Positions 2,008 to 20,916 of a DNA stretch of 64,000 nt are shown in pieces; position 1 is the stretch's first letter; each line of letters opens with the position of its first letter. Source of the stretch: Sphaerisporangium album. Its GTDB lineage: Bacteria; Actinomycetota; Actinomycetes; Streptosporangiales; Streptosporangiaceae. The position numbers were made by a program, and so were the translations under genes. Location of the stretch: assembly GCF_003323745.1 (NCBI RefSeq), contig NZ_QOIL01000001.1, positions 124,001-188,000 on the forward strand, written 5' to 3'. Below the pieces are notes generated by a model, which worked only from the letters and a program-made list of their open reading frames with translations, had not been told where the DNA came from and did not search any database.

Positions 2008-2277
2008 ATGAGGCTGGCGATCAGGGTACGGCCGGGCGCCGCCCGCGAATCCGTCGGCGGCGCCTACGGCGAGGGCGCGGTCGTGGTGAAGGTGAACGCC
2101 CGCGCGGTCGACGGCCGGGCCACCGAGGCGGCGCTGCGGGCGGTCGCCGAGGCCTTCGGCGTGCGCCGCTCCGATGTGCGTCTGGTAACCGGAGCGACAA
2201 GCAGGGATAAGGTCGTGGAGATCCTCGGCAACGACCAGGAATTGACCGAAAGGGCCACGGCGTTACGGATGGCGTAA
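2008..2277 (+). CDS. DUF167 (YggU-like) protein; host gene of the element insertion
   Basis: An 89-aa protein starting MRLAIRVRPGAARESV, with the usual small alpha/beta DUF167 pattern: KVNARAVDGRATEAALRAVAE, VRLVTGATSRDKVVEI. The cellular function of the family is not settled. ATG 2008 is preferred over an upstream ATG at 1960 because family homology begins there and a purine-rich GAGGACGGA precedes it. The last codons and stop (LRMA-stop) are exactly the 15-bp left att core, so the integrated element leaves the protein intact. In the uninterrupted chromosome the next gene would be the TraR/DksA-like gene now at 21002. Confidence 0.85.
   Translation: MRLAIRVRPGAARESVGGAYGEGAVVVKVNARAVDGRATEAALRAVAEAFGVRRSDVRLVTGATSRDKVVEILGNDQELTERATALRMA
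2263..2277 (+). other. attL core (15-bp direct repeat)
   Basis: The sequence ttacggatggcgtaa forms the final codons and stop of the DUF167 gene and is repeated exactly at 20902-20916. The core is itself an inverted repeat, ttacg and cgtaa around the 5-bp centre gatgg, the layout expected where two tyrosine-recombinase monomers bind around an overlap region. The flanking bases differ between the copies, which sets the core at 15 bp. Confidence 0.88.
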
Positions 2278-2356
2278 GCCAAGCCTGAGCCGTCTCGGCG
2301 CATAACGCGAGGTCGGGAGCCACTTCCGACGACCGGAAGGGCTTCACCAACCTCGC

Positions 2357-2378
2357 GAGTGACTAACTGGGTGACTAC
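2357..2378 (+). repeat. Left arm-type repeat, candidate integrase binding site
   Basis: This 22-bp sequence begins gagtgactaactgggtga and matches 20790-20811 at 20 of 22 positions in the same orientation. It contains the hexamer gtgact twice. It lies 80 bp inside the left core and overlaps the integrase stop codon. The symmetric placement at both ends suggests arm-type sites for the integrase or excisionase; function is inferred. Confidence 0.6.
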
Positions 2379-3541
2379 GCTCCCGCAGAGTCCTGCGGGA
2401 AGATCCGATCCATTGCCTCAGCACCTTCGAGCAGCATTGGCCGGATCTGCTTCCGGTAGACCTTCTCCGTGATCGCGGACCCATTGTGCCCGACCAGGCG
2501 AGAGATGTTCTCCAAGGGGACACCCGAGTCGGAGAGCAGAGAGACGAAGCTGTGGCGCATCTCCCGCGGTGTCCACTTCTTGGGGTCGAGCCCGGCCGCC
2601 GAGAGGATCCGCCGGAAGTCCCGCCGGACGTTGGCCGCGTCGAGCGGGGTGCCGGCGCTGCTCGTGAACACCAGCTTGCTGTCCGGCCAGGCTTCGCCGG
2701 CGGCTTTGCGGGCGGCGGCTTGCCGCTCCTGGTGGGCCGAGAGCGCGCGAACGCAGCGCTGCGGAAGGGCCAGCGTCCGGCGGGACTTCCGCGTCTTGGT
2801 ATCGCCTCCCGCTCGTACAGAGCGCCAGACCATGATGGATGGAGGGACCGGCGGGTCATCGTCGGGCTTGCCTACCAGGTCCACGAGGGGCCAGACGAGC
2901 GCGCGGAGCTCTTCGGTGCGGGCGCCGATCAGCAGCGAGAGCACGATGTACGCCTCCAGGGGCGTGCCTTCCGCTGACTTCAGGACGGCCTCAGCCTGCA
3001 TCAGGGTGAAGGCTTTCGACGGGCGCCCCGCGAGACCGGTGGGCACATCGCAGAGTGCGACGACGTTCCGTTTCACTTTGTCGCGCGCCTGCGCCATCCG
3101 CACCGCTCGATTCAGGATGGAATGGCACCTACGAAGTGCCTCCGTGCTGAGCGCGGTGGATTTCTCTTTCAGCCACTTGTCCACATCTTCGGCGGAAAGC
3201 TCTTTCAGCTTTCGCGCTCCGAGGGATGGGATGATGTGATTATCGGCCAGAGACGTATAGGTCCTGAGGCTACTCGGGGACTTGTCGCTCAGGCCGTATG
3301 TGAGCCAGTACCTCACGGCATCGGCCACGGTGTAGCCCTTCGACGCGACGATGAGGCCGTCTTCGTGGTCGCGTACGAGCTTCTTGAGCTTGGCTCGCGC
3401 CTTGGTCTTGTCCTTGTCGCTGGCCTTTCTGACGATTCGCTTTCCGGCAGGCGTGTAGCCCACCGTTATGGACGCGATCCAGCGATTGCGGGACTCGTCC
3501 CAGTGAAGGCCGCCGTCTCCGCGGCTCCTGCGCTTGATCAT
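2375..3541 (-). CDS. int: Tyrosine-family site-specific integrase
   Basis: A 388-aa recombinase that should catalyse integration and excision at the 15-bp core. The N-terminus (RWIASITVGYTPAGKRIVRK) resembles the arm-binding domain of phage and AICE integrases, followed by a SAM-like core-binding domain (YWLTYGLSDKSPSSLRTYTS). The catalytic domain shows the first Arg in LLIGARTEELRALVW, the HxxR-type box in PREMRHSFVSLLSDSG, RLVGHNGS, and the Tyr nucleophile in TEKVYRKQIRP. ATG 3541 is chosen because GGAGAA lies 7 bp upstream and similarity begins there; the open frame further upstream has no family features. Its leader repeat is shared with xis. Confidence 0.95.
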   Translation of the reverse strand: MIKRRSRGDGGLHWDESRNRWIASITVGYTPAGKRIVRKASDKDKTKARAKLKKLVRDHEDGLIVASKGYTVADAVRYWLTYGLSDKSPSSLRTYTSLADNHIIPSLGARKLKELSAEDVDKWLKEKSTALSTEALRRCHSILNRAVRMAQARDKVKRNVVALCDVPTGLAGRPSKAFTLMQAEAVLKSAEGTPLEAYIVLSLLIGARTEELRALVWPLVDLVGKPDDDPPVPPSIMVWRSVRAGGDTKTRKSRRTLALPQRCVRALSAHQERQAAARKAAGEAWPDSKLVFTSSAGTPLDAANVRRDFRRILSAAGLDPKKWTPREMRHSFVSLLSDSGVPLENISRLVGHNGSAITEKVYRKQIRPMLLEGAEAMDRIFPQDSAGA

Positions 3542-3570
3542 TTGGTGGTTCTCCGATTGAGATTCTCGGT

Positions 3571-3620
3571 GGGGTGCGGCTCCGACGCCGCTTTGGTCGG
3601 TGAGGCCGGGGCCGCTTTGA
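3571..3620 (-). repeat. Leader repeat upstream of int (copy 1), hairpin-forming
   Basis: About 50 bp nearly identical to 16322-16370 upstream of xis. Both contain ctttggtcggtgaggycgg between complementary arms (gcggctccgac / gccggggccgc here). It sits between the stop of the 50-aa gene and the int ribosome-binding site. The arms can form a GC-rich stem resembling a terminator or attenuator. Confidence 0.65.
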
Positions 3621-3627
3621 AGGTGGG

Positions 3628-3780
3628 TCAGGGAAGCCGTACTTCGGCGTAGATCCGAACGTTGCGGGTGGTGCCGCGGCAGGGGTAGGGCGCGGAGATC
3701 TCGATGACGTCGAAGGTGGTGGCGATGATGTCGGCGGCCTGGGTGACTTCGTCGGGCAGGCCAGTGATGCGGATCTTCAT
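3628..3780 (-). CDS. 50-aa protein resembling DUF3970-type small proteins
   Basis: The peptide begins MKIRITGLPDEVTQAADII, contains ISAPYPCRGTTRNVRIY and ends EVRLP. The pattern (MKIRITG, then S-x-PYPxRG, then VRxYxEV) resembles the tiny DUF3970-like proteins seen next to replication genes of mobile elements; the function is unknown. ATG 3780 has GGAGG 5 bp upstream. It lies between the iteron array and int on the same strand, so it probably belongs to the replication/integration operon. Confidence 0.7.
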   Translation of the reverse strand: MKIRITGLPDEVTQAADIIATTFDVIEISAPYPCRGTTRNVRIYAEVRLP

Positions 3781-3872
3781 GGGTCCTCCATGGTTTTCGG
3801 TCGCGGGATGGAAGGGTTTGGGGCTGGGGTGGGGGGCTTGGTGCGGTGCGGCTCTGGCGTTGAGGGCTGAAA

Positions 3873-4089
3873 CATCTCCGCATCTCCGCATCTCCGCAAA
3901 AGTGCCTTTGAGCTGGGAAGACGGTTGCGGAGATAGCTGCGGGGTTCCGGTGTCCATCTCCGCAACCGGGGGTTCATCTCCGCAGAAAGTGCGGAGATGC
4001 GGAGATGAACTCTGGGGAGGGAAGTTCATCTCCGCAGATGTTTGCGCTGGTAAGACGGGGTGTTGCGGCGTTGCGGAGATGCGGAGATG
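3873..4089. repeat. Iteron-like array, candidate replication origin of the element
   Basis: In 217 bp there are six copies of catctccgc (3873, 3881, 3889, 3955, 3975, 4027) and five of its complement gcggagatg (3927 with one mismatch, 3991, 3999, 4073, 4081). Several are exact tandems at 8-bp spacing; others form inverted pairs (3975/3991). The array occupies the 331-bp gap immediately downstream of the rep helicase gene. Multiple direct and inverted iterons beside rep are what an initiator-bound oriV looks like; activity is inferred. Confidence 0.75.
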
Positions 4090-4111
4090 TTTCAGCGGTT
4101 CTCCGACCGGG

Positions 4112-5692
4112 TCAGGCATGGTGCTCGACCCAGAAGACGTTTCGGTCTCCCCGGTCGTTCTTGGCCGCGCGGATCACGTAGTCGCCGCGCCACCGTCCGG
4201 TCTGCCCGGTCAGCAGGCGGCCCAGGGCCAGCGCGTTGGGCAGGCGCCCGGACGGGGTGGTGATGAACTGGCCGTCCCACCGGTCGTGTTCCTCACCGGC
4301 GGACCCTTGGCCGACCCAGACCGGTTCACCCGAGCGGCGTAGCTCGGCGGCGGTCATGCGGTCTTGGCCGTGCAGGTCGTGCCAGCAGGCCAGGAAGCCG
4401 CGCCAGCGGGTTTCGTCCTCGTCGATGTCGCGGATGCCGGCGGCGTTGGCCAGGAACCCGTCGATGTGGTGGTGGGCGAGGAACCCGCCCAGGGATTGGG
4501 CCCAGGGGGTGAACTGGCGCATGGACAGCCCGGCCGCGCGGGGCGCGCCCGCAGCGGTCCAGTCCAGGACCAGGACCAGCAGGTGCCACAGCACGGTGTG
4601 CTGGTTGGCCGGGACGGTGATCCACTGGTCAAGGTGCGGGATGCCGAACCGGCTCTGGTCGCGCTGTTCGGGCCGGGGCATGTCGGGGTCAAGGTGGACG
4701 CGGACGGTGCGGGAGGCCATGTCTCCGCCGACCTGGAGGTTGTTGCCGGTGGCCATCCACAGCCGGTCGTTGACGGTGGCGATGTTGCGCGAGGCGCCGA
4801 GCTGGCGGTCCGACCACACCCCGGCCGTGACCAGCAGGGCGAGGTTTGCGGAGTCGATGACGGTTCCTTCGGCCAGGTTGTCCCACACCACCACGCCGAC
4901 CTGTTCGGCCATGACCGCGGTGATGCTCTTGCGCAGTTCCTCTTCGGTGTAGGCCCAGGGCATGACCCGCTGGCCGTAGAGCATGCCCGGCCCGCCGGTC
5001 AGGATCGACTTGCCCGAGGCGGGCATGGTGGCGTCGATCAGCGCGAACGGGGTGAGGCTGCGGGTGTAGTGCCGCAGGATCGGTGTCGCGAGCAGGGCGA
5101 TGTAGTTGGCACGGTCGGCCGGTGTGGCCCAGGGGAAGTCCCGCAGGAACCGGTTGAGCAGGAAGTCCCGCGCGGCGTGCACCTGCTCGGCCGTGGGCCG
5201 GTCGGGGACCGGCGGCAGCGCGACCTTGGCCGCGAGGTACAGGCCTGTGGCGGCGTCGTACCCGGGGGCCTGGAGCAGGGTGCCGTCCCGGCGCAGTACC
5301 GGCGCGCCGATCACCCCGCGCAGCGCGGGCACGGTGGGCCAGGTCTTGCCGGCCAGCACCGAGGCCAGGATGTCCCGGGGCGGGGTGACCTCCTCCTCGT
5401 AGAGATCAACCTCCTTGCCCTTGCCTTCCTTGCGGGAGCGCAGCCGGTAGACGTAGGCGTGCTCGGCCAGCAGCCCGGCCAGGGTGGCCGGAGTGATCGT
5501 GCTCGCGGTGACCGGCAGGGGCGAGTCCTCGTCGGCGGCCGGGCTGGCCTGCCCGCCTGAGATGGTCTCCATGTGCACCAGTGCGCCGCCCGACACGTAG
5601 GTGTCGGGCAGCAACTGGTCGGCCAGGGCGGCCTTGAGCACCCGGATCGTTTCGGGCCCGGAGCCCACGTGCACGTGCTTGGTGCTGGTCAC
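4112..5692 (-). CDS. Replication protein with AAA+/SF3-like ATPase core
   Basis: A 526-aa protein from GTG 5692, which overlaps the prim-pol stop as GTGA. A P-loop-like ATMPASGKSILTG is followed by a hydrophobic strand and acidic residue (VGVVVWDNLAEG, Walker B-like), a sensor-like MATGNNLQVGG, and basic residues ASRTVRVHLD. This order fits a hexameric helicase or initiator ATPase working with the adjacent primase-polymerase, as in prim-pol type AICEs. The N-terminal 150 residues have no recognisable motif. The iteron array starts just past the stop codon. Exact initiator or helicase activity is inferred from context. Confidence 0.78.
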   Translation of the reverse strand: MTSTKHVHVGSGPETIRVLKAALADQLLPDTYVSGGALVHMETISGGQASPAADEDSPLPVTASTITPATLAGLLAEHAYVYRLRSRKEGKGKEVDLYEEEVTPPRDILASVLAGKTWPTVPALRGVIGAPVLRRDGTLLQAPGYDAATGLYLAAKVALPPVPDRPTAEQVHAARDFLLNRFLRDFPWATPADRANYIALLATPILRHYTRSLTPFALIDATMPASGKSILTGGPGMLYGQRVMPWAYTEEELRKSITAVMAEQVGVVVWDNLAEGTVIDSANLALLVTAGVWSDRQLGASRNIATVNDRLWMATGNNLQVGGDMASRTVRVHLDPDMPRPEQRDQSRFGIPHLDQWITVPANQHTVLWHLLVLVLDWTAAGAPRAAGLSMRQFTPWAQSLGGFLAHHHIDGFLANAAGIRDIDEDETRWRGFLACWHDLHGQDRMTAAELRRSGEPVWVGQGSAGEEHDRWDGQFITTPSGRLPNALALGRLLTGQTGRWRGDYVIRAAKNDRGDRNVFWVEHHA

Positions 5693-6588
5693 GCGGCCAC
5701 CTGGCGGGGTCGCTTGGCTCCGGCGCGCAGGCCGGATGCGATGGTACGGTGCGCCTCCCCGGCGCCCTGCCCGACCTGCGCGGCGGCGTCGGCGAGCCAG
5801 GCGGTCACCTCGGCCTCGGCCAGCGCGCCGCCGGCCACCAGCTGGCCGAGCGCGATCGACGCGTGGTACAGGGCGTTGTTGTGGCCGTCCGGGGGCGAAC
5901 CGGTGACGCGCGCCAGCTCGGCGACCACGGCCGCGCGCAGGTAGGCGCCGTGCCGGTCGGTGGCCACCGGCACCGCCACCGGCTTCTGTGGCGGACGGGG
6001 GGCCGGGCGTAGCCGCTCGGCGAGCCATCCCGGCAGCGGGGCCGGGACGGCGCGGTGCAGCACCTGGTAGGTGCCGGTGCCGTCAGGGAGGTCGACGTGG
6101 CTGCCGGGGCCGACGACGTACCCGCCGCGGGCGCGGGTGTCGACCTTCCAGCCCAGGCCGTTGCCGTCCTCGCCGCGGGTGTTGCCCAACTCCACCCCGG
6201 CCGGGGCCGCGTAGTACAGGTGGCAGCCGCCGAGCCGGGTCCGGACCTGGAAGGTCTCCAGCGGCACCAGGTGCCCGGCACGCTGGCAGACCAGGGCGAA
6301 CACGTCGGCGCCGCCGGTCACGCCGGGCAGGTCCCATTCGGGCGGGGGCTGGTCGCCGGACTTGGCAACGTCCAGGTCGACCACGACCAGCTCGGACGGA
6401 CCGCAGGCGATGCCGATGTTGAAGGGGTGGCGCCTCCACCAGCGGTGGATCACGTCGGGGTCGGTGGTGGCCTTGCGGGTCCAGCTCCACCCCTCCAATG
6501 GGACCTTGTCCCTGGGGGCGAGCGGGAAGACGTGCCAGCCGCGCGCGGCGGCGGCTAGCGCGTAGCTGGTGAGGTCAGTCCTCGGCAT
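5689..6588 (-). CDS. Bifunctional DNA primase/polymerase (prim-pol)
   Basis: 299 aa. The archaeo-eukaryotic primase fold of the plasmid/AICE prim-pol family is visible: N-terminal YALAAAARGWHVFPLAPRDKVP, the region IHRWWRRHPFNIGIACG, the metal-binding VVVDLDVAK, and GGCHLYYAAPAG plus KVDTRARGGYVVGPGS in the catalytic core. The C-terminal 100 residues (primase C-terminal-like) end in a helical AEAEVTAWLADAA segment. It should prime and extend DNA for element replication. AAGGAG precedes ATG 6588. It is translationally coupled to the downstream ATPase by a 4-base overlap. Confidence 0.9.
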   Translation of the reverse strand: MPRTDLTSYALAAAARGWHVFPLAPRDKVPLEGWSWTRKATTDPDVIHRWWRRHPFNIGIACGPSELVVVDLDVAKSGDQPPPEWDLPGVTGGADVFALVCQRAGHLVPLETFQVRTRLGGCHLYYAAPAGVELGNTRGEDGNGLGWKVDTRARGGYVVGPGSHVDLPDGTGTYQVLHRAVPAPLPGWLAERLRPAPRPPQKPVAVPVATDRHGAYLRAAVVAELARVTGSPPDGHNNALYHASIALGQLVAGGALAEAEVTAWLADAAAQVGQGAGEAHRTIASGLRAGAKRPRQVAA

Positions 6589-7312: not shown

Positions 7313-8260
7313 TTATCGCGCTCGTGCCGCCTGGCGCACGTAGGGCGAGCGGTCCGTGGTGCGCAGCCGGATGCGGGTGTCCTCGGGGCAGCGGGGGTTC
7401 ATGGCCGCGTTCTGGCGGATCTGCACCGGCTGCCGGTAGTGGGTGAGCGCGGTGAGCGTGGCGGGCGGGCAGGCCGGGTTGACCGCCAGGCGCGCGCGCA
7501 CTCGCGGTTCGGGGTCGGTGGCCAGCCACGCGGCCACGACCGGCGGGAGCGCGGGGTTGCCGGCGGCGCCGAGCCGGACGTCGAGGCAGTCGTCGCGCAT
7601 CAGCGCCGTCAAGGCCGGTTCGGGAGCGGCCGGGTTTTGCGCGACGCAGGCGCGGACCAGCGGCTCGGGGTCGGCCGCCAGGACGGTCAGGACGCCGGGG
7701 CCGGCCATCGCCGACTGGGCGGCGCGGCAGCGTACCCCGGGCGCCTGGTCGCGGGCGGCTGCCTGGACCATCTGCTGGGTGAGGTTCGGGTTGAACATGG
7801 CGCCCATGCGCTGCCAGTCGCTGCCCAGTACCGCGAGGGTCTCCAGGTGCTCCTGCGGCAGCGCGGGGTTGCCGGTGGCGGCCTTGCTGATGATGGCGTA
7901 CGGGCTGTAGGCCAGATCGAGCAGCACGTCCGCGGGCGTGGCCCGGTTCTTGGCGACGTAGGTGCGCACGGTGATGAACCGGCTTTCGGCCAGGACGCGC
8001 AGGGTGTGCTCGTCGGTGCCGGCCGTGGCCAAAAGCGCCTCGGCCAGCGACCGCAGGTGCTCGGCGAACGTCTGCTCGCCATCCCCGAGCAGTTCCTGCG
8101 GGTCGCGGTCGCGCGCGGTCTGCTCCTCGGCCCCGCGGGCGAAGCTGGCCAGCTTTTCGGCCACGGGGGAGGCCACCAGCAGCACCGTGAGGTAGTCGAG
8201 GTTGTCGATGGTGTACGGGCCGGGCCAGTCGAAATGCGGAAGGAACCGTCGAAGGGTCAT
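7313..8260 (-). CDS. Leucine-rich-repeat-variant (LRV/HEAT-like) helical repeat protein
   Basis: 315 aa. The C-terminal two thirds are about seven imperfect 24-25-residue repeats built on VR-x-x-(V/A)-AxNPALPPxxLxxLxxD: ATGNPALPQEHLETLAV, AQNPAAPEPALTALMRD, AAGNPALPPVVAAWLAT, AVNPACPPATLTAL, AAMNPRCPEDTR. Such solenoids usually bind protein or nucleic acid and have no enzymatic motif. The N-terminus (FLPHFDWPGPYTIDNLDYLTVLL) is unassigned. AGGAGGT precedes ATG 8260. The gene lies exactly between two copies of a 116-bp junction repeat, which marks it as an inserted module. Function unknown. Confidence 0.75.
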   Translation of the reverse strand: MTLRRFLPHFDWPGPYTIDNLDYLTVLLVASPVAEKLASFARGAEEQTARDRDPQELLGDGEQTFAEHLRSLAEALLATAGTDEHTLRVLAESRFITVRTYVAKNRATPADVLLDLAYSPYAIISKAATGNPALPQEHLETLAVLGSDWQRMGAMFNPNLTQQMVQAAARDQAPGVRCRAAQSAMAGPGVLTVLAADPEPLVRACVAQNPAAPEPALTALMRDDCLDVRLGAAGNPALPPVVAAWLATDPEPRVRARLAVNPACPPATLTALTHYRQPVQIRQNAAMNPRCPEDTRIRLRTTDRSPYVRQAARAR

Positions 8261-8284: not shown

Positions 8285-8400
8285 TGGATCGGGGATGGTG
8301 CGGGCGCGTCCGGCGTGGACGTTCTTGGCGGAGTGGCGACGCCGGTACGCGCCCGTCGTGCTCGGGGGACGGTCAGGCGAGTAGCTCGGCGAGCATCGCC
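8285..8400 (-). repeat. 116-bp direct repeat, right copy
   Basis: Covers the last codons of the NUDIX-fusion gene, its stop codon at 8373 and the following hairpin (8302-8354). It differs from the left copy by a few substitutions and compensating single-base indels. Here it occupies its presumed original position. Confidence 0.85.
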
Positions 8401-9497
8401 TGGTGCGCGGCGAACACGGTGCCGCCGAGGGCGGCGAGGTGGTCGACGAGCTGCTCGTAGGTGTCGGAGGGGATCCATTCGGCGCGGTCGGCGTCGTCGG
8501 CGCCGGTCAGCGTGGGGAACTGGTCGCGGGGCCGGGTGCCCATGTGGGCGCGGACGGGCACGGTGACCATCCATGCCTCGTCCGAGGCGCGCGGGTCGGG
8601 GACGACGCGGGCCGGGAGCGCGATCAGAATGGCGTCGTTCTCCCCCAGGGCGAGCCCGGTCTCCTCGGCGAGCTCGCGGATCGCGGCGTGGGTGGGCTCC
8701 TCGCCGGTGTCGACCTTGCCGCCGGGCAGGGCGCATCCGTGGCCGTCTCCGCGCCAGATCATGGCGATGTACCGGTGGCCGTCCTGGTCGTGGAGGGTGG
8801 CGATGGCGTCGGCGCAGACCTGCTCTCCCCAGTGCCCGAGCTCGTTACGTCCGTAGCGGATGCCGGTCGGCGCGCAGGGGTTGAGCGGGCGGCCGGCCAC
8901 GACCTGGAACGGCACCAGGGCGGCGGCCTGCCGGGCCTCCCAGTCGATCTGCGAGGGGTCGGTGATCGGGTCGGCCCATCCCTCGGTGACGCCCCGGCTC
9001 AGCACGTCGGGGTCGGTGTGGGTCACGGGCTGGTCGTCTGCGTGGTGGGCCAGCGTGAGGAGAGGCTTGTCGACGTCGCGGTGTTCGACGGTGACGTCGA
9101 TGCCGAGCAGGGCCAGCTCGTTGGCCAACGCTTCGGTCAGGGCTACCGAGCGGTGGCGGCCGCCGGCGCATCCGATGGCCACGCGCACCAGGTGTTGGGG
9201 GCGGCCCGTGGCGTCGTGCAGCATGTCGGCGGTCATCGTGGTCAGGTTGCGCACCAGACCACGCGCGCCCGGAGTGATCATCACGTGCAGGTACACGTCC
9301 GCGGCCAGGCCGGTCTTGTCGCGCATGGCCGCGTCGTGGTGCGGGTTGCGCAGGTACCGGCGCGCGTCGATGGTCAGTTCGGCCTCGGGGGCCGGGGCGT
9401 GGCCGTAGCCGAACGAGGTGACCGTGACCGCCTTGGCGGCCGCCGTCGTCGCCGTGGCCGTGGCGGTGGAGCTGGGGGCGGTGGAGTTGAGGGCCAT
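8373..9497 (-). CDS. RapZ C-terminal-like domain fused to a NUDIX hydrolase
   Basis: 374 aa. Residues about 20-145 resemble the C-terminal domain of RapZ/YvcJ proteins (SFGYGHAPAPEAELTIDAR near the start, then VAIGCAGGRHRSVALTEALA). In RapZ this half binds RNA and amino-sugar phosphate, but the P-loop kinase half is absent. Residues about 225-374 are a NUDIX hydrolase with a complete box (GKVDTGEEPTHAAIRELAEETGL). pSAM2 encodes a NUDIX-motif immunity protein, Pif, that blocks transfer between element-carrying cells, so a Pif-like role is possible. ATG 9497 has GAGAGGAAC upstream. Substrate unknown; the domain fusion is the notable point. Confidence 0.85.
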   Translation of the reverse strand: MALNSTAPSSTATATATTAAAKAVTVTSFGYGHAPAPEAELTIDARRYLRNPHHDAAMRDKTGLAADVYLHVMITPGARGLVRNLTTMTADMLHDATGRPQHLVRVAIGCAGGRHRSVALTEALANELALLGIDVTVEHRDVDKPLLTLAHHADDQPVTHTDPDVLSRGVTEGWADPITDPSQIDWEARQAAALVPFQVVAGRPLNPCAPTGIRYGRNELGHWGEQVCADAIATLHDQDGHRYIAMIWRGDGHGCALPGGKVDTGEEPTHAAIRELAEETGLALGENDAILIALPARVVPDPRASDEAWMVTVPVRAHMGTRPRDQFPTLTGADDADRAEWIPSDTYEQLVDHLAALGGTVFAAHQAMLAELLA

Positions 9498-9606: not shown

Positions 9607-9622
9607 GGCCGAGGGGCCGGGG

Positions 9623-10284: not shown

Positions 10285-12615
10285 TCAGGCGGTGGCCCAG
10301 TTGGCGACCTCGCGCGGCACGTCGATCTCGCCTCGGGCGATACGCTGCGCAACCGCGACGAGGTCGCCGCGCTCGTAGCCGCGGCCGCGCTGGCCGCCCC
10401 GGGAGAACGGGTTGGGCAGCGGAGCGACGCCCAGGGGGCGCAGCAGCGCGGCCAGGGCCAGGACGTCGCCGCGCTCGCCGTCGTGGTCGACGGCGAGGAT
10501 GCCGAGCGCGGCGGCCAGCTCCTCGCTGTGCAGCCGGGTCGTGCGCGCGGCGTCGAACACCTCCAGGGCGCGGCGCAGGATCTGGGGGACGGGACGGGCT
10601 GGGGCGGCGGGGAGCTGGTCGAGCTGGGGACGCTGCGCGGCGCCGTGCCCGTCGCCGGGCGCGGTGGTCTGCTCGGCGTGCAGGCGGCGGGGACGGGGCG
10701 GGTCGGGCCAGGCCGCCGCCCGCGAGACGCGCTCCCCGCTGGCGGCCGCGGCGCGGTTGCGGAGCAGCTCGTGCGGGGCGGGCCAGGCCGAGGCCGACCC
10801 GGTGACCTGGGCGACCGGCGCAGCAGGCCGGGGCACCGGGTGCGCGGCGCGAGGCTGGCTGTAGGGCTGACGGCGCATCGGCACCACGGGGGCGATCTCG
10901 GCGCCCTGGCCGCCGTGCTCCTGGCCATGCTGGTAGCCGTCGAAGTCCTCGTCTTGGTCGCCGAGGTCGGCGAACGCGGCGCGCATCCGCTGGTAGCGGG
11001 TGGCGTAGGCGTGGCCGGCGACACGGGCGCTGGCCTCGTCCAGCTCGGGGCGGCGGCGGCTGATCTCCAGTGAGGCGGCGACGATCTGGGCGGGGTTGAT
11101 CTCGGCGACCTTCAGCGCCCGCGGGGTGGTGGTGCCGTCGCGGCCGAACGCGCACCCGGGGCCGGCCAGCTCCTCGGGGTCGATCGCCCGGTACATCTGC
11201 GCGGTCATGCCGAACAGGTAGGTCAGCTCGGCGGGGTCGGAGACCAGCATGCCGACCGCCCACGCGCACTGGGTGATCACGTCCCGGGAGATCAGCCCCT
11301 GGGTCGCCCGCAGGCTGGACAGCACGACGTTGACGCCCTCGTTGCGGGCGATCCGGATGACCTCCTCCAGGCCGTCGCGCAGCTTGCCCTTGGGACTCTT
11401 TGGCTGGTGGCGGGGGTTCATCACCTCGGCGCCCTCGTCCAGCATGATCAGGATCTCGGGCAGGGCGGAGGACACCGGCAGCAGGTTGCTGTTGGCCTGG
11501 ATCTTCAGCTTGCGGTAGGAGCGCTTGCGGTCCTTGGCGATGCGGATCGCGGCGTCCACCATGACCTGCGCGTCCTCGATGGTGCAGGCGGCCCAGTCGA
11601 TCGCCGGGCGGCCGGTCTGGCCCTCCAGCCAGGCGTGCAGCCACGGCTGGGACATGCCGCCGCCGTTGAGGTCGATGTGCCAGACCAGGGTGTCCACCGC
11701 CCGGCCGTTCTCGCCGGTCACCACGTGCAGCAGGTTCGTCTTACCCGAGCCCTTCTGCCCGACGATGAGCCCCGAATGCTGGCGCAGCTCAGCTTGGGCG
11801 GGGGCGCCGTCCTTGTGGAACCCGTAGGTCATCGGCTCGTTGACCGACCGGGGCGACAGCTCCCCGGAGTACGGGATGGACTCGTGCAGCCGGTTCTTGG
11901 TCGCGACCTTGAGCAGGAACTCCCCGCGATGGGCACCGGGGAGCACTTCGACGCCGCACCCGGCCGGGAGCTGGGCGTCGGTGGCCAGCGCGTCGGCGCG
12001 CATGGCGACAAGGCTTCGGGTCGGGGTCTGCCCGCCCGCCCCCTGCAGGGGCAGCAGGCAGGTCAGAGTGAGTCCGCCGCCGCCGGGCCAGTGCTTGACG
12101 TCGGTGACCTCGATCCGGGCCTTGCAGACCCGGAAGAACCGGGCCTGCCACTGCTCGGCGATGACCGCGTCCCGGCGCAGCAGCACACCCGTGCGCGTCT
12201 GGCCGCCGGCCACCGAGGGCCGGGGCCGGGTGCGGTGGGCCAGGGAGTGGAACACCACCGACCCCAGCGCCCCGACCCCGAGCGTGAGCATGCTCTCCCG
12301 GGTCCACGGGGTCGAAGCGGTCAGGCCCCAGGTCAGCCAGCCGCCCGCCCCGGCCCAGCAGCCCAGCCGGTAGAACAGCGCCGAGGGGGCGAGGTTGCGC
12401 TTGTGGGCCTGCACGATCGCTCCGGCGCATCCCACGGTGGCCGCCGCGACCGGCCAGAACGGCGCGACGTCGGCCACATCGCCGAACGCGGCCGCCGCGG
12501 CCAGGGCCAGCGTGCCCATACCGGCGGCGCTGACCGGGCCGCGCGGGGCGAGCGACCAGTCCAGCCGCCCGGCCCCCGATGTCGAGGTCTTCTTGCTGTG
12601 CTTGGCGGTGGTCAC
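10285..12615 (-). CDS. FtsK/SpoIIIE (TraB-type) conjugative DNA translocase
   Basis: 776 aa, GTG start with AAGGGA upstream. The N-terminus has two pairs of hydrophobic segments (about residues 30-70 and 85-125) for membrane anchoring. The motor domain shows Walker A LIVGQKGSGKTNLLH, Walker B EILIMLDEGAEVMNP, and VVLSSLRATQGL. The C-terminal 250 residues are Pro/Arg-rich and end in a winged-helix-like region (HSEELAAALGIL...). In actinomycetes one such hexameric motor moves double-stranded element DNA to the recipient mycelium. It follows the spread genes and precedes the candidate clt region. Strongest transfer marker of the element. Confidence 0.93.
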   Translation of the reverse strand: MTTAKHSKKTSTSGAGRLDWSLAPRGPVSAAGMGTLALAAAAAFGDVADVAPFWPVAAATVGCAGAIVQAHKRNLAPSALFYRLGCWAGAGGWLTWGLTASTPWTRESMLTLGVGALGSVVFHSLAHRTRPRPSVAGGQTRTGVLLRRDAVIAEQWQARFFRVCKARIEVTDVKHWPGGGGLTLTCLLPLQGAGGQTPTRSLVAMRADALATDAQLPAGCGVEVLPGAHRGEFLLKVATKNRLHESIPYSGELSPRSVNEPMTYGFHKDGAPAQAELRQHSGLIVGQKGSGKTNLLHVVTGENGRAVDTLVWHIDLNGGGMSQPWLHAWLEGQTGRPAIDWAACTIEDAQVMVDAAIRIAKDRKRSYRKLKIQANSNLLPVSSALPEILIMLDEGAEVMNPRHQPKSPKGKLRDGLEEVIRIARNEGVNVVLSSLRATQGLISRDVITQCAWAVGMLVSDPAELTYLFGMTAQMYRAIDPEELAGPGCAFGRDGTTTPRALKVAEINPAQIVAASLEISRRRPELDEASARVAGHAYATRYQRMRAAFADLGDQDEDFDGYQHGQEHGGQGAEIAPVVPMRRQPYSQPRAAHPVPRPAAPVAQVTGSASAWPAPHELLRNRAAAASGERVSRAAAWPDPPRPRRLHAEQTTAPGDGHGAAQRPQLDQLPAAPARPVPQILRRALEVFDAARTTRLHSEELAAALGILAVDHDGERGDVLALAALLRPLGVAPLPNPFSRGGQRGRGYERGDLVAVAQRIARGEIDVPREVANWATA

Positions 12616-14425: not shown

Positions 14426-14703
14426 GGCATCGCTCCGCAGTCGAACAGCGGCTCCTGTAGCTCGCACACCTCGCACGGCTCCCACACGCGGCGGTCGTGG
14501 CGCCCGGGGTCGTTGCACTGCTTCGCTGCCGGGACCTTCGGCAGGCCCGCCACGTGCTCGTTCAGGTCCCACTCGGCCAGACGCCGCGCCGGGTGTTCCT
14601 GGCCGGTCGCCCCGCACGTGCAGGCCAGGCGGTAGAACCGGTGGCCGGTCTCGTCCCTGTGGCGCTCGATGGCCGGGAGGTGCCGGACGACGGCGGGCGT
14701 CAT
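14422..14703 (-). CDS. 93-aa cysteine-rich (zinc-ribbon-like) protein
   Basis: Contains CTCGATG, a central QCNDPGRH, and CEVCELQEPLFDC, i.e. two CxC/CxxC pairs likely to hold a metal ion. Basic and soluble. Both ends overlap neighbours by ATGA, so it is translationally coupled between the DUF2637 protein and the Spd-like protein. No family assigned; nucleic-acid or membrane-complex adaptor is a guess. Confidence 0.7.
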   Translation of the reverse strand: MTPAVVRHLPAIERHRDETGHRFYRLACTCGATGQEHPARRLAEWDLNEHVAGLPKVPAAKQCNDPGRHDRRVWEPCEVCELQEPLFDCGAMP

Positions 14704-15821
14704 ACCGCCACCTCCCGGCCCCGGTCCTCAGTCGCGCCCTGGTCCCCGGTCGCCTCGTTGCGGACCTTGGAGACCCAGCCGATCGACCAGCCGGTCTTGT
14801 CCGCCAGGTCGCGCACGCTCGCACCGGGGGTGTTCACAACGAGGCTGCGCGCCTCGGCCTCCAGTAGCCGCGGGGCGTTCACCGCGGGCGTCTTGCGGGT
14901 GTTCGCCAAAGCGTTCACGCCGCCGCGCGCAGCGTTCAGGGCCTGACGTTCGCGGCGTTCACGGGCGAGCGCCTCAGCCCGTTCACGGGCCTGCCGCTCC
15001 TGTTGTTCACGCGCCTGACGTTCACGCTCGGCGTGCTCGCGCTGCTCGCGTTCACGGCGCTCCCGCTCAGCCTGTTCGGCCTGCTGGCGCTCGGCCCGCT
15101 GCTGGCGCTCCCGCTCCTGCCTGCGCTCCTCCCGTTCGGCCTCCTCGCGGCGCAGGGCGGCCTCGGCCTCGCGCTGCTCACGGGCCGTGCGTGCCTCGTG
15201 CTCGCGCCGCTGCTGCTCCAAGGTGGCGGCGTGTTCACGGGCTTCACGCTCACGCCGCTCGGCCCGCTCCTGCTCGCGTTCACGCTCGGCACGCTCGCGC
15301 TGTTCACGCTCACGCTCGGCCCGTTCACGGGCCTCACGCTCGGCCCGCTCGTGAACACGCTGCCGCTCGGCCTCCGCCTGCTGTTCACGCTCGATCCGAT
15401 CCAGCGCCCTGGCGATGGCCCGCCGATAGGCCAAACCGGCCTCAGCGGTCACGATCAACAGCAACGGGGCGACCGCGTGGACAGCGACCCCGGCAAGATC
15501 CTTCTTCCACGCCGACTCGCCGACGTTCAGCGCCACCGTGAACAGGCCGGTGAGCCAGCGCAGCACCACCGGCCAGGCCCCGCCGCTGCCCCCGAGCCGG
15601 GACACCGTCGAGTCCAGCCGGATCACGATCACCACGGCCGCGTCGACGACGACCGGCAGGATCGGCGCCGTCCAGTCCCACCCATCCGGGGTGACCCGCA
15701 CGACAAGCGGCGTCACCGTCAAGACGCTGAACAAGATGGCGCCCGCGGTGATGGCCCACGTGCCGACGTTCAGCGTCCTCTCGGCCGCCACGATCTGCTT
15801 CTGCGACAAGGGCGCCTTCAT
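14700..15821 (-). CDS. DUF2637 membrane protein with long coiled coil and C-terminal HTH
   Basis: 373 aa. Residues about 15-140 carry four hydrophobic segments typical of DUF2637 (ITAGAILFSVLTVTPLVV, LPVVVDAAVVIVIR, VVLRWLTGLFTVALNV, VAVHAVAPLLLIVTAEAGL). Then come about 165 residues of almost pure Arg/Glu/Gln coiled coil (RAEREREQRERAERERE type). The C-terminus is a helix-turn-helix (ASVRDLADKTGWSIGWVSKVRNE). DUF2637 proteins are regular AICE components linked to intramycelial spread or replication control. The layout suggests a membrane-anchored DNA-binding protein. Overlaps both neighbours by 4 bases. Confidence 0.85.
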   Translation of the reverse strand: MKAPLSQKQIVAAERTLNVGTWAITAGAILFSVLTVTPLVVRVTPDGWDWTAPILPVVVDAAVVIVIRLDSTVSRLGGSGGAWPVVLRWLTGLFTVALNVGESAWKKDLAGVAVHAVAPLLLIVTAEAGLAYRRAIARALDRIEREQQAEAERQRVHERAEREARERAEREREQRERAEREREQERAERREREAREHAATLEQQRREHEARTAREQREAEAALRREEAEREERRQERERQQRAERQQAEQAERERREREQREHAERERQAREQQERQARERAEALARERRERQALNAARGGVNALANTRKTPAVNAPRLLEAEARSLVVNTPGASVRDLADKTGWSIGWVSKVRNEATGDQGATEDRGREVAV

Positions 15822-16321: not shown

Positions 16322-16370
16322 GGGGCGCGGCCCCGACGCTGCTTTGGTCGGTGAGGTCGGGGCCGCTTGA
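16322..16370 (-). repeat. Leader repeat upstream of xis (copy 2), hairpin-forming
   Basis: Nearly identical to 3571-3620 in front of int. Here the arms are perfect: gcggccccgac pairs with gtcggggccgc around a loop with tttggtcggtga. It lies 23 bp before the xis start and 3' of hairpin cassette B. Confidence 0.7.
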
Positions 16371-16446: not shown

Positions 16447-16454
16447 GCTCGCGG

Positions 16455-16625: not shown

Positions 16626-16626
16626 C

Positions 16627-17111
16627 TCAGATCCCCCCGGCACTCGGGGTGTAGGGCGCGCAGCGCGGGCACACGTGCGGCATCGCGGTCAGCGGCACGC
16701 CCGGCAGGGCGAACATCTCGACCTGGCAACCGGAGCACGCCACCCGCTCACCGAGCGTCCCGGCGAGCTCGGGGCCGTCCAGGGCGGCCAGTTCGTCGGC
16801 GTCCACGGCGGTCCACACGTCCACCGCGACGCCGTGCAAGGCGCCCCGCGCGTGCAGGGATCCGCCCTTCTCGCGCGGGATCCAGCGGCGCAGGATCACC
16901 GGGACGCCCAGCAGCGCGGCGTAGACGCTCAACGCCTTCAGCCGGGCGGCCAGATCGCCGGAGTAGTGGCTGATCTGCCCCGCTAGGTCGCCGGGGCTGA
17001 TCGCGTACACGTTCCATTGGACCGGCGGCAGATCGCCCCGCTCCAGCAGGTCCACCAGCAGCCGCGCCGCGGCAAGCTGCCCGGTCGCGTCCATGACGGC
17101 GGCGCTCATCG
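16627..17111 (-). CDS. 161-aa hypothetical protein with C-terminal zinc-ribbon-like Cys pairs
   Basis: Begins MSAAVMDATGQLAAARLLVDLLERGDL. The middle (VYAISPGDLAGQISHYSGDLAARLKALSVYAALLGVPV, then WIPREKGGSLHARGALHGVAVDVWTAV) resembles small uncharacterised proteins repeatedly seen in actinomycete elements. The end has CSGCQVEMFALPG and HVCPRCAPY, likely one metal site. Its ATG overlaps the stop of the 14-codon reading frame upstream, which implies coupled translation. Function unknown. Confidence 0.7.
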
Positions 17112-17152: not shown

Positions 17153-17191
17153 TTGGGCTCCTTTGCAGAGAGGGAGGTGGGCGGAGCGGCT

Positions 17192-17252: not shown

Positions 17253-17255
17253 GCG

Positions 17256-17405: not shown

Positions 17406-17560
17406 CGGCGGCCGCCCTTGCGGTCGTGGTCGTGGTTGATCGGGTCGGAGCTGACCGCACCGCACGAACAGGTGTGCAGCGGGCGCGTCGGGCCGGAGTT
17501 CGCGCCCGCCGGCCACTGCTGACCGCGGGCGGTCTGCTGGGTCTGCTTGGCGTCGCTCAT
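17402..17560 (-). CDS. 52-aa hypothetical protein with CxC motif
   Basis: Begins MSDAKQTQQTARGQQWPAG and has LHTCSCGAVSSDPINHDH, a single CxC-His cluster that may bind metal or simply be structural. ATG overlaps the stop of the 54-aa gene as ATGA, and its own stop overlaps the next GTG. Second gene of the operon. No family recognised. Confidence 0.6.
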   Translation of the reverse strand: MSDAKQTQQTARGQQWPAGANSGPTRPLHTCSCGAVSSDPINHDHDRKGGRR

Positions 17561-17721
17561 CGGGTCGCCTGCCCCGCCTGCTGGCCCTTCTTGGCCTGCT
17601 GCTTGTCGTACTCGTCGCGGACGTTGCGGCCCGGGTTGGTGCCGGGCCACCCCGAGGGACGCTCACCGTCGGGCCAACCCGCGTGGAGGGGGATGTGGTC
17701 AACCGTCGTCTGTCGTGCCAT
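17557..17721 (-). CDS. 54-aa hypothetical protein, first gene of the main AICE operon
   Basis: Begins MARQTTVDHIPLHAGWPDGE, with NPGRNVRDEYDKQQAKKGQQAGQ at the end. ATG 17721 follows AAGGAG. Being the promoter-proximal gene under the double-palindrome promoter, it will be the first expressed when transfer is derepressed. No domain recognised. Confidence 0.65.
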   Translation of the reverse strand: MARQTTVDHIPLHAGWPDGERPSGWPGTNPGRNVRDEYDKQQAKKGQQAGQATR

Positions 17722-17851
17722 CCTGGGAACTCCTTGTTTGAAGACCTGGGGCGACGTCTTGGTCGATGGGCGCCCCAGGTCAAGGGACAGGGATCGATTG
17801 ATCAGGCCCTGGCGGGCAGCCACCCGCCGGGGCCTTCTTTGCGCCTCCTCA

Positions 17852-17897
17852 ACTGGTGCGCACCAGTAGTAGAGCAACTGGTGCGCACCAGTGTCAA
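17852..17897 (-). promoter_or_regulatory. Promoter with two perfect 16-bp operators (GntR/KorSA-like control)
   Basis: On the minus strand a consensus -35 TTGACA at 17897-17892 is followed after 18 bp by TCTACT (17873-17868) as a weak -10. Two identical palindromes, actggtgcgcaccagt, occupy 17877-17892 (touching -35 and spacer) and 17852-17867 (just past -10). Their spacing of 25 bp between starts would block polymerase if bound. The core ggtgcgcacc recurs at 20607-20616 before the GntR gene. Confidence 0.85.
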
Positions 17898-18048
17898 GCG
17901 CTTCTGGATGTTGGCGTTTCCTTGCGTACTCAAGTGAACGTCTATGGACCCACTCCAGGCCATGCACAAGCAGTGCATCGACCCTGCATTTGTGATGCAC
18001 TTGCCATGTAGGCATGCAGGTGGAGGACCGAACCCGGGGAGATCCGTA

Positions 18049-19338
18049 GTGGTTATCGATCTTTGGACGGGGCGAAAGGCGGGCGTTCTTAGAGCGGCCC
18101 TACGGCTGAGCGTTGAGGCGTTTGCGCATCATCTGGGTATCGCGGTTCGGACGGTGGCAAAGTGGGATGCGGAGCCCGAAATCATTCCGCAACCGTCCAT
18201 GCAGCAACTATTAGACGTCGCACTTGAAAAAGCGCCGGAGACGGTGAAGGCTCGATTCGGACTGCTAATGGAGGCAGGGGCAAAGCAGTCAAGCGACGTG
18301 CAGCGTCCCGAACCGCGAGAGGTGATGATGGCTGCTGCGCAAGAGTCGGCGGAAGATGCGGCATTGAGGGCTGTACGGTGCGACGTCGATTCCATCAATG
18401 ACCTTCACGACCGAGTCGTCAGTGTGGCCCGTGCCTACTCGTCTCGGCCGCCCATGACCGTGTTCGCTGATGCGCGAGCAACGCGCGATCTCACTCGCTC
18501 CCTGGTGGAGCAGACGCGCCGGCCCTCCGAGTTGATTGACCTCTACTTTGTAATGGGCAAGACCAATGCCTTGATGGCGTCTATCGCCTTTGATCTAGGT
18601 AACTGGCAGGCTGCGGGAACGCTGGCGAACTCCGCCACCACGTACGCTGATCTCGCCGGACATAGGTCATTGCAGGCATGGGCTCTCGGTTTGCAGGGCA
18701 CTCTGGCGTTCTGGCGTGAAGAGCCAACACGCTCGCTTAACTTCATCGCCCGTGGACTCGCAGTCGCTCCTGAGGGGGCCTCGCGGTATCGATTGCGGTA
18801 CATCGCTAGCCGTGCTCATGCAGTCAACGGCGACGCCGGAGCGGCGGCTGAGGTGCTAGCGGCGGCGGAACGGGATCGAGAGGCAGCTCAAAAATACCCC
18901 GATGAACTGCACGATGAGATTCGTGGAGAGTTCACGTTTGATGATGCTCGTGCGGCCGCGTGCGCGGCCGCCGCGTGGCTTCATCTCGGGGATGGGAAGC
19001 AAGCGGCTCGTCACGCCCAGCTGGCGCTTGACGCCTACGCTGTGGTCCCAGAAGCGCAGCGTCCCTTCTCTCCGGTTACGGGAGCCCGGATTGACTTGGC
19101 GGCAGCTCAACTGCTGTTGAGGGACCGAGACGCGGCCGAGGATGAGCTGAGCACGGTTTTTGCCCTTCCATCCGTGCTACGCAATGCCTCCCTGACTGGC
19201 CGAATCGGGAGAGTTAAGTCTCTGCTGGATGCCCCACGATGGAGAACGGACCCCGGTGCCAAGGAATTGGCTGATCGAATCACTGATTGGCTAGGGGATA
19301 CGGCATCCAGGCCAGAATCAGTTGAAGGGGTCATCTAG
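18049..19338 (+). CDS. XRE-type HTH regulator with TPR-like helical repeats
   Basis: 429 aa from GTG 18049 (VVIDLWTGRKAGVLRAAL) with GGGGAGAT upstream; an ATG at 17944 in the same frame is less likely. The N-terminal HTH is LRLSVEAFAHHLGIAVRTVAKWDAEP. The rest is helical TPR-like sequence (ALGLQGTLAFWREEPTRSLNFIARGLAVAP, AAWLHLGDGKQAARHAQLALDAY), as in NsdA-like actinomycete regulators. It is the only plus-strand gene of the element and diverges from the operator-controlled operon, so it might share that control region. Codon use is visibly less GC-rich than its neighbours, suggesting later acquisition. Its end overlaps the convergent epimerase gene by 8 bp. Confidence 0.8.
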   Translation: MVIDLWTGRKAGVLRAALRLSVEAFAHHLGIAVRTVAKWDAEPEIIPQPSMQQLLDVALEKAPETVKARFGLLMEAGAKQSSDVQRPEPREVMMAAAQESAEDAALRAVRCDVDSINDLHDRVVSVARAYSSRPPMTVFADARATRDLTRSLVEQTRRPSELIDLYFVMGKTNALMASIAFDLGNWQAAGTLANSATTYADLAGHRSLQAWALGLQGTLAFWREEPTRSLNFIARGLAVAPEGASRYRLRYIASRAHAVNGDAGAAAEVLAAAERDREAAQKYPDELHDEIRGEFTFDDARAAACAAAAWLHLGDGKQAARHAQLALDAYAVVPEAQRPFSPVTGARIDLAAAQLLLRDRDAAEDELSTVFALPSVLRNASLTGRIGRVKSLLDAPRWRTDPGAKELADRITDWLGDTASRPESVEGVI

Positions 19339-20350
19339 TCAAAGCTGCGAGAATCGCCTGCTCTCGGCTGAGATCCAGGCCAATCTCGCTAGAGCGAACG
19401 TTTATTTGAGCCATGGGGGAGTTGAGCAGCCATTCCCAGGTGTCCTGAATGGTCCTGCTCAACGGTCGGCATGTCAGGCCGTGCGCGAGAGCGCTACTGG
19501 AGTCCACTTGCCACACGCCGGGGAATGTGCGCCAAAGTGGTAGCTCGGACCATTGGCGCACTCCACTCCTGAGCAGAATGTCATCTGGCACCCATACGAA
19601 TTCCGGCTCGGCCTCTGTGGCCTTGGCGCAAAAGTTTAGAAATCCGCCGAACGTCTCGCCGTCGACGGGAGCTGTGACATTGAAGGCTCCAGAGGTGCCC
19701 TCGGTAATACAACGGAGAGCGAACAGTGCGACGTCTCTGACATCAACCGGCTGAATCGTTCGCTCCGGCTTCCCCGGCGCTAGCGTGCGGCCTCCCTGGG
19801 CGATACGTCGCAACCACCATGGAAGCCTGCCGACGTACTCGTGTGGTCCTAGTACGACGCCGGGCCGGAGCACGGTAGTGCGCTCGTCGCCAAGGCTGAT
19901 ACGCACGGCCATTTCACAGCCGGACTTCTGATAGCCGTATCTGGTTGGACCGTCCTCGACGTCTACGCCGTAATTCTCGTCCGCGTCCGGAGGGCATTCC
20001 AGCAGAGACGATTCCGTTGTGAGCGGCTTAATCGGCCAGTCAGCGTAAACGCTCACCGAGGACATGAACAGGTAGCGACTGGTGAGGGGGGCAAGGGTAC
20101 GGGTAACGCTCAACACGTTTCGGGGCACGTAGCCGGAGGTGTCAATCACCGCGTCCCATGACCCGGATTGCGTCAGTCTCACGACGTCTTTCGGCGCGTA
20201 GCGGTCGCCGCGAATCGCGGTTACTCCGCTTACGTCTTCACCAGTATGGCCGCGATTGAAAGTTGTAACCTCGAAACCTTGGGCGATTGCCTCGGCAGCT
20301 ATAGCACGGCCGATGAAGGCAGTACCGCCGAGAATGAGCAGCCGCGTCAT
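19331..20350 (-). CDS. NAD-dependent epimerase/dehydratase family protein (cargo)
   Basis: 339 aa, extended SDR fold: LLILGGTAFIGRAIAAEA (GxxGxxG nucleotide motif), then FMSSVSVYADW (Ser), and YGYQKSGCEMAVR (YxxxK catalytic pair). Later TTVLRPGVVLGPHEYVGRLPWWLRRIAQGG is typical of sugar-nucleotide or isoflavone-type reductases. The substrate cannot be read. ATG 20350 overlaps the GntR stop, so the two form an operon. Codon use is less GC-rich than the element core. Not a known conjugation function; probably cargo. Confidence 0.85.
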   Translation of the reverse strand: MTRLLILGGTAFIGRAIAAEAIAQGFEVTTFNRGHTGEDVSGVTAIRGDRYAPKDVVRLTQSGSWDAVIDTSGYVPRNVLSVTRTLAPLTSRYLFMSSVSVYADWPIKPLTTESSLLECPPDADENYGVDVEDGPTRYGYQKSGCEMAVRISLGDERTTVLRPGVVLGPHEYVGRLPWWLRRIAQGGRTLAPGKPERTIQPVDVRDVALFALRCITEGTSGAFNVTAPVDGETFGGFLNFCAKATEAEPEFVWVPDDILLRSGVRQWSELPLWRTFPGVWQVDSSSALAHGLTCRPLSRTIQDTWEWLLNSPMAQINVRSSEIGLDLSREQAILAALTR

Positions 20351-20574
20351 TTCGTCTCGTCGTTCGCAGCGTTGGCGAAGTATCCGCGGCCATGTTCGCT
20401 GCGAACGATCCCCTCAGCGGCCAGCTTCATCAGGACTAGCCGCACGGTCGTGCGGCCGGCCTCAAGCTCTGCTGCAAGGGTGCGTTCGGAGGGGAGCCGA
20501 CCGCCCGGGCCCAGGTCTCCTGACGTGATCAGCTCTCGTATCGAGCGCTCGACGCGCTCTGTCACTTCCCCCAT
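20347..20574 (-). CDS. Minimal GntR-family HTH regulator, candidate element repressor
   Basis: 75 aa, essentially only the winged helix: ERSIRELITSGDLGPGGRLPSERTLAAELEAGRTTVRLVLMKLAAEGIVRSEHGRGYFA. The effector domain of normal GntR proteins (about 240 aa) is missing. ATG 20574 is preferred; the frame is open further upstream but would run over the operator-like palindrome at 20605-20618. The same palindrome core is duplicated at the main operon promoter, so it may autoregulate and repress the transfer operon like KorSA of pSAM2. Repressor role is inference. Confidence 0.8.
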   Translation of the reverse strand: MGEVTERVERSIRELITSGDLGPGGRLPSERTLAAELEAGRTTVRLVLMKLAAEGIVRSEHGRGYFANAANDETK

Positions 20575-20604
20575 GCTCGACGGGACTCCTCGACTGAGTG
20601 CGTG

Positions 20605-20618
20605 GTGGTGCGCACCAC
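20605..20618. promoter_or_regulatory. GntR operator-like palindrome
   Basis: Perfect palindrome gtggtgcgcaccac, sharing the 10-bp core ggtgcgcacc and the outer tggt/acca with the two operators at 17852-17892. It lies 31 bp before the GntR start codon, the expected position for autoregulation. Confidence 0.75.
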
Positions 20619-20789
20619 TGTAGTGCGGCCGCAGTGCCGGGTGACGCGATGCCCTCCTGGGGAGGCGCTCTGGCCGTGAGGGCTGCCCCGGGCATGGAAG
20701 GAGCGTCGACAGGGGACACATATGTGGTGGATCGGCAAGCGTGACGTACGTCTCAGGTATGGAGCACTTCCGGTTTGCGGAGATCTCTG

Positions 20790-20811
20790 GAGTGACTACC
20801 TGGGTGACAAC
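20790..20811 (+). repeat. Right arm-type repeat
   Basis: Twenty of 22 bases agree with 2357-2378 in the same orientation; starts gagtgactacctgggtga. It is 90 bp inside the right core. The stretch 20620-20901 otherwise holds no supported gene. Confidence 0.6.
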
Positions 20812-20901
20812 GACCCCGGACCTAGCCGCACGCTGGCGAACTTTGGCGTACAGCGCACCAGGTCGCGCGGGAAAGGCCACGCTGACCAGGTAGATCCAGG
20901 A

Positions 20902-20916
20902 TTACGGATGGCGTAA
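20902..20916 (+). other. attR core (15-bp direct repeat)
   Basis: Exact copy of ttacggatggcgtaa at 2263-2277. Beyond it the chromosome resumes (TraR/DksA-like gene at 21002), while sequence to the left is unrelated to the DUF167 gene. Excision between the two cores would rejoin the DUF167 gene to its original downstream sequence. Confidence 0.88.

Follow-up and report, generated by a model that had tools for sequence, protein, structure and literature searches.

Why actinomycete integrative and conjugative elements (AICEs) favour tRNA genes, and how they come to leave them, is an old question, and it is raised anew by a 64,000-nucleotide stretch of the Sphaerisporangium album genome (contig NZ_QOIL01000001.1, positions 124,001 to 188,000; hereafter the window). 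At positions 2263-20916 the window carries an element of about 18.6 kb with AICE-type gene content, which ends at the stop codon of a DUF167 gene and not in a tRNA gene. Here we report that this element is bounded by a perfect 15-bp repeat and encodes a tyrosine integrase whose relatives lie mainly beside tRNA genes. Based on these observations we suggest, at a rough probability of 0.72, that an integrase from a clade directed to tRNA anticodons inserted the element into a 15-bp mimic of an anticodon stem-loop at the end of DUF167.

Insertion point between DUF167 and dksA

The repeat TTACGGATGGCGTAA is found at 2263-2277, as the core of the left attachment site (attL), and at 20902-20916, as the core of the right one (attR), exact in both places. 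It reads TTAC-GGATGGC-GTAA, with 4-bp arms TTAC and GTAA around the probable overlap GGATGGC. No third copy occurs with up to three mismatches in the window, nor any exact one in the 9.3-Mb host genome (62 contigs). The attL copy makes up the last four codons and the stop (L-R-M-A-stop) of the DUF167 (YggU/COG1872) gene, which encodes 89 aa (2008-2277, +; Pfam PF02594, E 1.8e-22), and the attR copy opens a conserved block upstream of a traR/dksA-type zinc-finger gene (21002-21412, +; PF01258, 9.1e-14), followed by lspA and an rluD-type gene (Peptidase_A8 and PseudoU_synth_2 domains). A preliminary description of this DNA had already proposed the identical terminal repeats, the left copy as the end of DUF167, an inverted repeat centred on the 15-mer, and an AICE lodged in the 3' end of a protein-coding gene; all of these are borne out. 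The dyad TTACG-GATGG-CGTAA is real, with TTACGNNNNNCGTAA present twice in the window against a mean of 0.00 over 100 shuffles. ARAGORN called no tRNA gene anywhere in the window, and no T-arm-like motif was seen at the element ends (2200-2500 and 20600-21000).

On its own the repeat would be poor proof of the ends, two matches within three mismatches arising in 8 of 100 shuffles. It is more than chance because it lies 97 bp from the stop codon of the integrase gene and because counterparts of the two flanks meet there in ten genus relatives. Our genus sample comprised 11 Sphaerisporangium genomes, the host included, and the site is uninterrupted in all ten relatives, its right side matching the right flank in the window, which is the outcome that the preliminary description had proposed to look for in related genomes. 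Nine of the ten run directly from DUF167 into the counterpart of the sequence after attR, then traR/dksA, lspA and rluD. The tenth, G004, has the 15-mer once, followed by the same downstream sequence as the flank beyond attR, and gave no DUF167 match (26 of 31 first-look candidates scored). Each empty site holds a single 15-mer, exact in seven relatives, one base off in G005 and G009 and two bases off in G007. From these comparisons we firmly place the insertion point at the 15-mer.

In G004 (locus L143), DUF167 has apparently been lost via deletions between ileS and traR/dksA, with the neighbouring genes in place. Upstream of ileS in the window there is a T-box leader match at 1716-1964 (-; 51.5 bits, E 1.4e-10, under the Rfam gathering score of 93). 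Just inside attL, a hairpin with arms at 2306-2316 and 2347-2357 (spanning 2306-2357) precedes the integrase gene and, by its position, may be terminator-like. A second anticodon-stem-like dyad, CTTCC-GACGACC-GGAAG, lies between attL and the integrase gene at 2323-2339, within a longer hairpin; its score against the tRNA-arm profile is near the top of the window, and it too is possibly a terminator.

Integrase relatives and the form of the core

The tyrosine integrase gene (2375-3541, -) encodes 388 aa from the chosen start codon, which is not settled, and matches Phage_integrase (1.9e-15), SAM_3 (5.2e-8) and a PHROG integrase family (9e-53). We compared it with the best 80 of 149 relatives from a scan of genome contigs, at 62-72% identity. 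A tRNA gene whose 3' end faces the integrase gene lies within 1.5 kb in 67 of the 80, in the same layout as in this element, and some of these have an extra stretch of several hundred bases between the two genes. Among the other 13 a T-arm-like motif lies within 230 bp of the integrase gene in seven; neither a tRNA call nor such a motif was obtained for L040, L049, L061, L086, L089 and L099, the sequences of L086 and L099 stopping 135 and 69 bp past the gene. In a tree of 79 of the 81 sequences (two were dropped for internal stops), this integrase pairs with a neighbour at tRNA-Pro-GGG (99/88) inside a 31-row group (99/95) that includes seven rows lacking a tRNA call. The clade in which the integrase is nested mainly targets tRNA genes, and a shift of target from tRNA to the DUF167/dksA site would be the simplest reading.

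The targets of these relatives share a form. Anticodon stem-loops of the pattern N-TT-NN-[7]-NN-AA-N (in short, TT-N11-AA) are found in 66 of the 67 targeted tRNAs and account for 8 of 9 distinct 17-mers. The host genome has this form in 5 of its 46 distinct stem-loop entries (Ala-CGC, Ile-GAT, Pro-CGG, Pro-GGG and Val-CAC), all five of which occur among the targets seen in relatives. For Thr-CGT, the stems of the targeted genes read ATTCA or CTTCA against ACGCA in the host genome; for Pro-TGG, CTTGC against CCTGC. The binomial probability of 8/9 at a rate of 5/46 is 1.6e-7, uncorrected and with relatedness ignored. The 15-mer combines the TT-N11-AA form with a full 4-bp dyad, as do 6 of 63,984 positions in the window, two of them being attL and attR. 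Seven of 11 hand-picked loci taken at 20 kb yielded a repeat with both copies present (minimum length 17 bp). These repeats measure 44-60 bp and reach to about the 3' end of the tRNA; in five loci the first base is that of the anticodon loop, and in two the repeat begins one or two bases ahead of it. As first examined, 11 of the 80 loci had repeats of 28-60 bp. One genus relative, G009, carries two tRNA-inserted elements with sibling integrases (L149 and L150), at Ala-CGC and Val-CAC, both of TT-N11-AA form.

These features are consistent with a model in which the element enters by tyrosine-integrase recombination at the 15-bp core. Integrases of this clade would mostly recombine in the anticodon loop of tRNA genes with N-TT-NN-[7-nt loop]-NN-AA-N, and for this one the 15-mer most likely acts as a mimic of such a stem-loop: GGATGGC would form the 7-bp overlap, within which the crossover falls, and the arms would serve as integrase half-sites. 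The joint (attP) of the excised circle is then expected to read GATCCAGGA-15mer-GCCAAG. Since the 15-mer would be duplicated on insertion, both DUF167, on the left, and the block upstream of dksA, on the right, should remain complete. Fifteen base pairs may suffice, against 44-60 bp in the seven tRNA siblings, because a gene end needs just its stop codon. The sparing of both genes may have been selected for.

Several observations weigh against the mimic. One targeted tRNA, Val-TAC, breaks the TT-N11-AA form; the form itself was derived from the relatives with prior knowledge of the dyad, and many of those relatives are near copies of one another. The 5/46 rate comes from the host genome, and the targets sit in other hosts. 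A tRNA-arm profile ranks the empty site (attB) only 927th of 127,968 positions, with attP 53rd, attR 215th and attL 295th, and dyads flanking 7 bp are a common feature of tyrosine-recombinase cores. No short core-type repeat was found in 11 relatives for which either a long repeat or a tRNA was lacking. The integrase branch is long (0.42), and a 2022 study states that there is no correlation between the sequence of an integrase and the site it uses (PMC9513070).

Conservation of the 15-mer and competing explanations

In an alignment of the 11 genomes, the 15-mer opens a conserved block that runs past TATGCT upstream of traR/dksA, 62 of 75 columns being invariant. The part beyond attR (20917-20961, +) holds a possible -35 box TTGTTC (20933-20938) and, after 17 bp, a possible -10 box TATGCT (20956-20961). 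Thirteen of the 15 columns of the 15-mer are invariant, and none of the 241 15-nt windows in the rest of DUF167 reaches at least 13. Its third codon positions are invariant in 4 of 4 cases; for the remainder of DUF167 the figure is 22 of 85, a contrast with a chance probability of 0.0045, or 0.017 with degenerate codons alone counted. TTA is rare, making up 6 of 879 Leu codons in 27 host open reading frames of the window, a set picked by high GC content at third codon positions and so biased against TTA. The 15-mer of G004 agrees on average at 97% with those of the other genomes, the 90 bases before it at 59%, and the 25 bases after it are identical to those of the host. Because G004 keeps the 15-mer without DUF167, its conservation appears to be independent of that gene. 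The constraint on the 15-mer seems to act at the level of DNA rather than of DUF167 coding, in a way that points to dksA, and the block probably represents a promoter-upstream element. A related block of TATGCT type is present in 6 of 20 loci from other genera.

There is a less favourable side to this evidence. Equal conservation is seen elsewhere in the block and in dksA: in the stretch from the 15-mer up to the start of dksA, 34 of 86 windows have at least 13 invariant columns, as do 23 of 186 in early dksA. The 15-mer of G004 could persist partly through the recency of the DUF167 loss. The promoter reading rests on conservation, and a sigma-70 consensus scan of the region found no promoter. 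The dyad was absent from the 20 other-genus loci examined. The block is confined to the genus. A match within three mismatches occurs in 24 of 250 family genomes taken as a sample of a larger group, 11 of them being the genus itself and the remaining 13 sharing a different sequence at two to three mismatches.

Two other roles for the 15-mer were considered and rejected. As a genome-wide operator or regulon site it fails, TTACGNNNNNCGTAA occurring one to three times per genus genome, with this site among the occurrences in 10 of 11; G007 has TTACTGATGACGTAA here in place of TTACGNNNNNCGTAA. A place for it in an RNA hairpin or terminator finds no backing either (fold z -0.37, scan negative).

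A fuller history can be proposed, though tentatively and at somewhat less than even odds: a tRNA-anticodon integrase would have switched to a non-tRNA mimic that the host keeps as the upstream element of the traR/dksA-lspA-rluD operon and that overlaps the DUF167 stop. The preliminary description had instead supposed that the element belongs to a family specialised for the 3' end of DUF167 and rebuilds that end as other AICEs rebuild the ends of tRNA genes, making DUF167 a recurrent hotspot. We regard this as unlikely. It accounts for the exact preservation of the DUF167 end and for the empty sites of relatives, and the part of it concerning restoration stands insofar as DUF167 stays intact; a family adapted to coding genes is hard to reconcile with an integrase nested among mainly tRNA users. 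The hotspot finds no support in an occupancy of 1 in 11 at the genus site, in the examined flanks of the 80 integrase relatives, where DUF167 was never found (E up to 1e-3), or in the surroundings (3.3-9 kb) of the ten empty sites, where no integrase relative was found. Nor would adaptation to DUF167 explain why G004 keeps the 15-mer without the gene, or why the changes in G005, G007 and G009 alter the protein, replacing Ala by Thr, and in G007 Arg by Leu as well, with third positions all fixed.

A chance insertion at a secondary site, by a tRNA-specific element that has acquired no stable new specificity, seems improbable. The mainly tRNA-targeting habit of the clade and the single occupied site would suit it, but the two ends share the full identical 15-bp core, with no tRNA gene or T-arm-like motif at either, and attP must therefore already carry this core. 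That the 15-mer is a mere chance repeat with the true ends elsewhere, as might be argued from the 293 different 15-mers that recur in this GC-rich window and that likewise count against the repeat alone as proof, is excluded since the flanks in relatives meet exactly at the 15-mer.

Gene content and relation to known elements

Besides its attachment-site repeats and tyrosine integrase, the element encodes a putative translocase and replication proteins of its own. Next to the integrase gene is one for a 50-aa protein (3628-3780, -) that recurs in some related elements, at 88% identity in L076 and L128 and 51% in L033 and L144, and that gave no family match. Replication is represented by a primase/helicase-like protein (4112-5854, -; PHROG DNA polymerase/primase 1.3e-58, 82% identity to L147), the start of which is not settled, as it overlaps the next open reading frame, and by a Prim-Pol protein (5689-6588, -; PF09250, 1.1e-42). 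The putative Tra protein, of 776 aa (10285-12615, -), is FtsK/SpoIIIE-like by its match to PHROG_31069 (1e-116); its Pfam FtsK match is weak (0.097), and among PDB entries the single match at E up to 1 (0.56) is to a protein other than a translocase. A DUF2637-type protein (14700-15821, -), 70% identical to a product annotated DUF2637 in L156, may be a spread protein. No relaxase or type IV secretion system and no excisionase (Xis) family match was found among the open reading frames scanned, which were part of those in the element.

The other genes encode an LRV/HEAT-repeat protein (7313-8260, -; PF01816, 3.7e-15), a fusion of a RapZ C-terminal domain with NUDIX (8373-9446, -; PF22740, 3.6e-29, and PF00293, 4.7e-12), an NsdA-family TPR-like regulator (17944-19338, +; NF053720, 3.9e-22, above cut-off), an NAD-dependent epimerase/dehydratase as cargo (19331-20350, -; PF01370, 4.2e-13) and a GntR-family DNA-binding domain (20347-20574, -; PF00392, 5.6e-19). 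The RapZ-NUDIX fusion has a 52% identical relative on L076. Two pairs of 16-base direct repeats lie inside the element, at 3590-3605 and 16341-16356 and at 5317-5332 and 16657-16672. Kinship with a Streptomyces plasmid was considered and set aside, the DUF2637 protein alone being related among the four plasmid proteins compared. Viral contigs yielded a single integrase relative, at a contig edge.

AICEs in protein-coding genes are already known (PMC9513070, PMC3218068). As the survey of Ghinet et al. (2011, PMC3218068) describes integration sites, AICEs with tyrosine integrases are integrated at the 3' end of tRNA genes in the vast majority of cases, the pSLS subfamily excepted, closely related integrases may use different tRNA genes, and one group of AICEs with serine integrases resides in protein-encoding genes. 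The 2022 study reports an AICE of Streptomyces RLB3-6, AICE03, that lies in rlmN and has 11-bp repeats, as well as a site inside a glycosyltransferase gene (PMC9513070). Islander records 2083 islands with anticodon-centred sites (PMC4383910). In the open-licence literature we found neither the DUF167/dksA site, nor the TT-N11-AA form of this clade, nor the anticodon-mimic reading; no paper there places an AICE with DUF167 or names a YggU integration site, and those that mention DUF167 and integrases seem, from title and start of abstract, unrelated. A 2021 review on archaeal recombinases raises the question of whether the dyads required by tyrosine recombinases also occur in target genes other than those for tRNA (PMC8371274). 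Such a dyad is present in this bacterial case, in a clade-level form open to test through four base changes. If correct, the TT-N11-AA half-site rule would predict the usable tRNA genes and the rare non-tRNA sites for this integrase clade. Our observations also suggest that a gene-end site may owe its stability to the control region of a neighbouring gene, and integration vectors for Sphaerisporangium and its kin could make use of a 15-bp site that is this compact and leaves genes intact.

The closest comparison is with the siblings L144, L145, L148-L151 and L153, AICE-like elements in tRNA anticodon loops that share 66-72% related integrases and the same layout from integrase gene to attachment site; a Prim-Pol relative is present in L144, L145 and L150, as here. 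Their cores, that of L151 excepted, have the same TT-NN-7-NN-AA form, and their repeats span half a tRNA over 44-60 bp, whereas this element has 15 bp at the stop codon of a protein gene. The pSLS-subfamily and serine-integrase AICEs are likewise exceptions to tRNA integration in the survey's account (PMC3218068); the relatives of the present integrase are mainly tRNA users. AICE03 resembles this element in its protein-coding target, short repeats and an integrase divergent from tRNA-Val siblings; it occupies a different gene, and the integrase switch suggested in that paper's treatment of it comes without a core rule or a link to the anticodon stem (PMC9513070). In phage lambda, as outlined in the archaeal review, the attachment core has 15 bp with a 7-bp overlap, a layout matched by anticodon loop and stem, and this is the same 4+7+4 size as the 15-mer, in a different host gene and a different type of element (PMC8371274).

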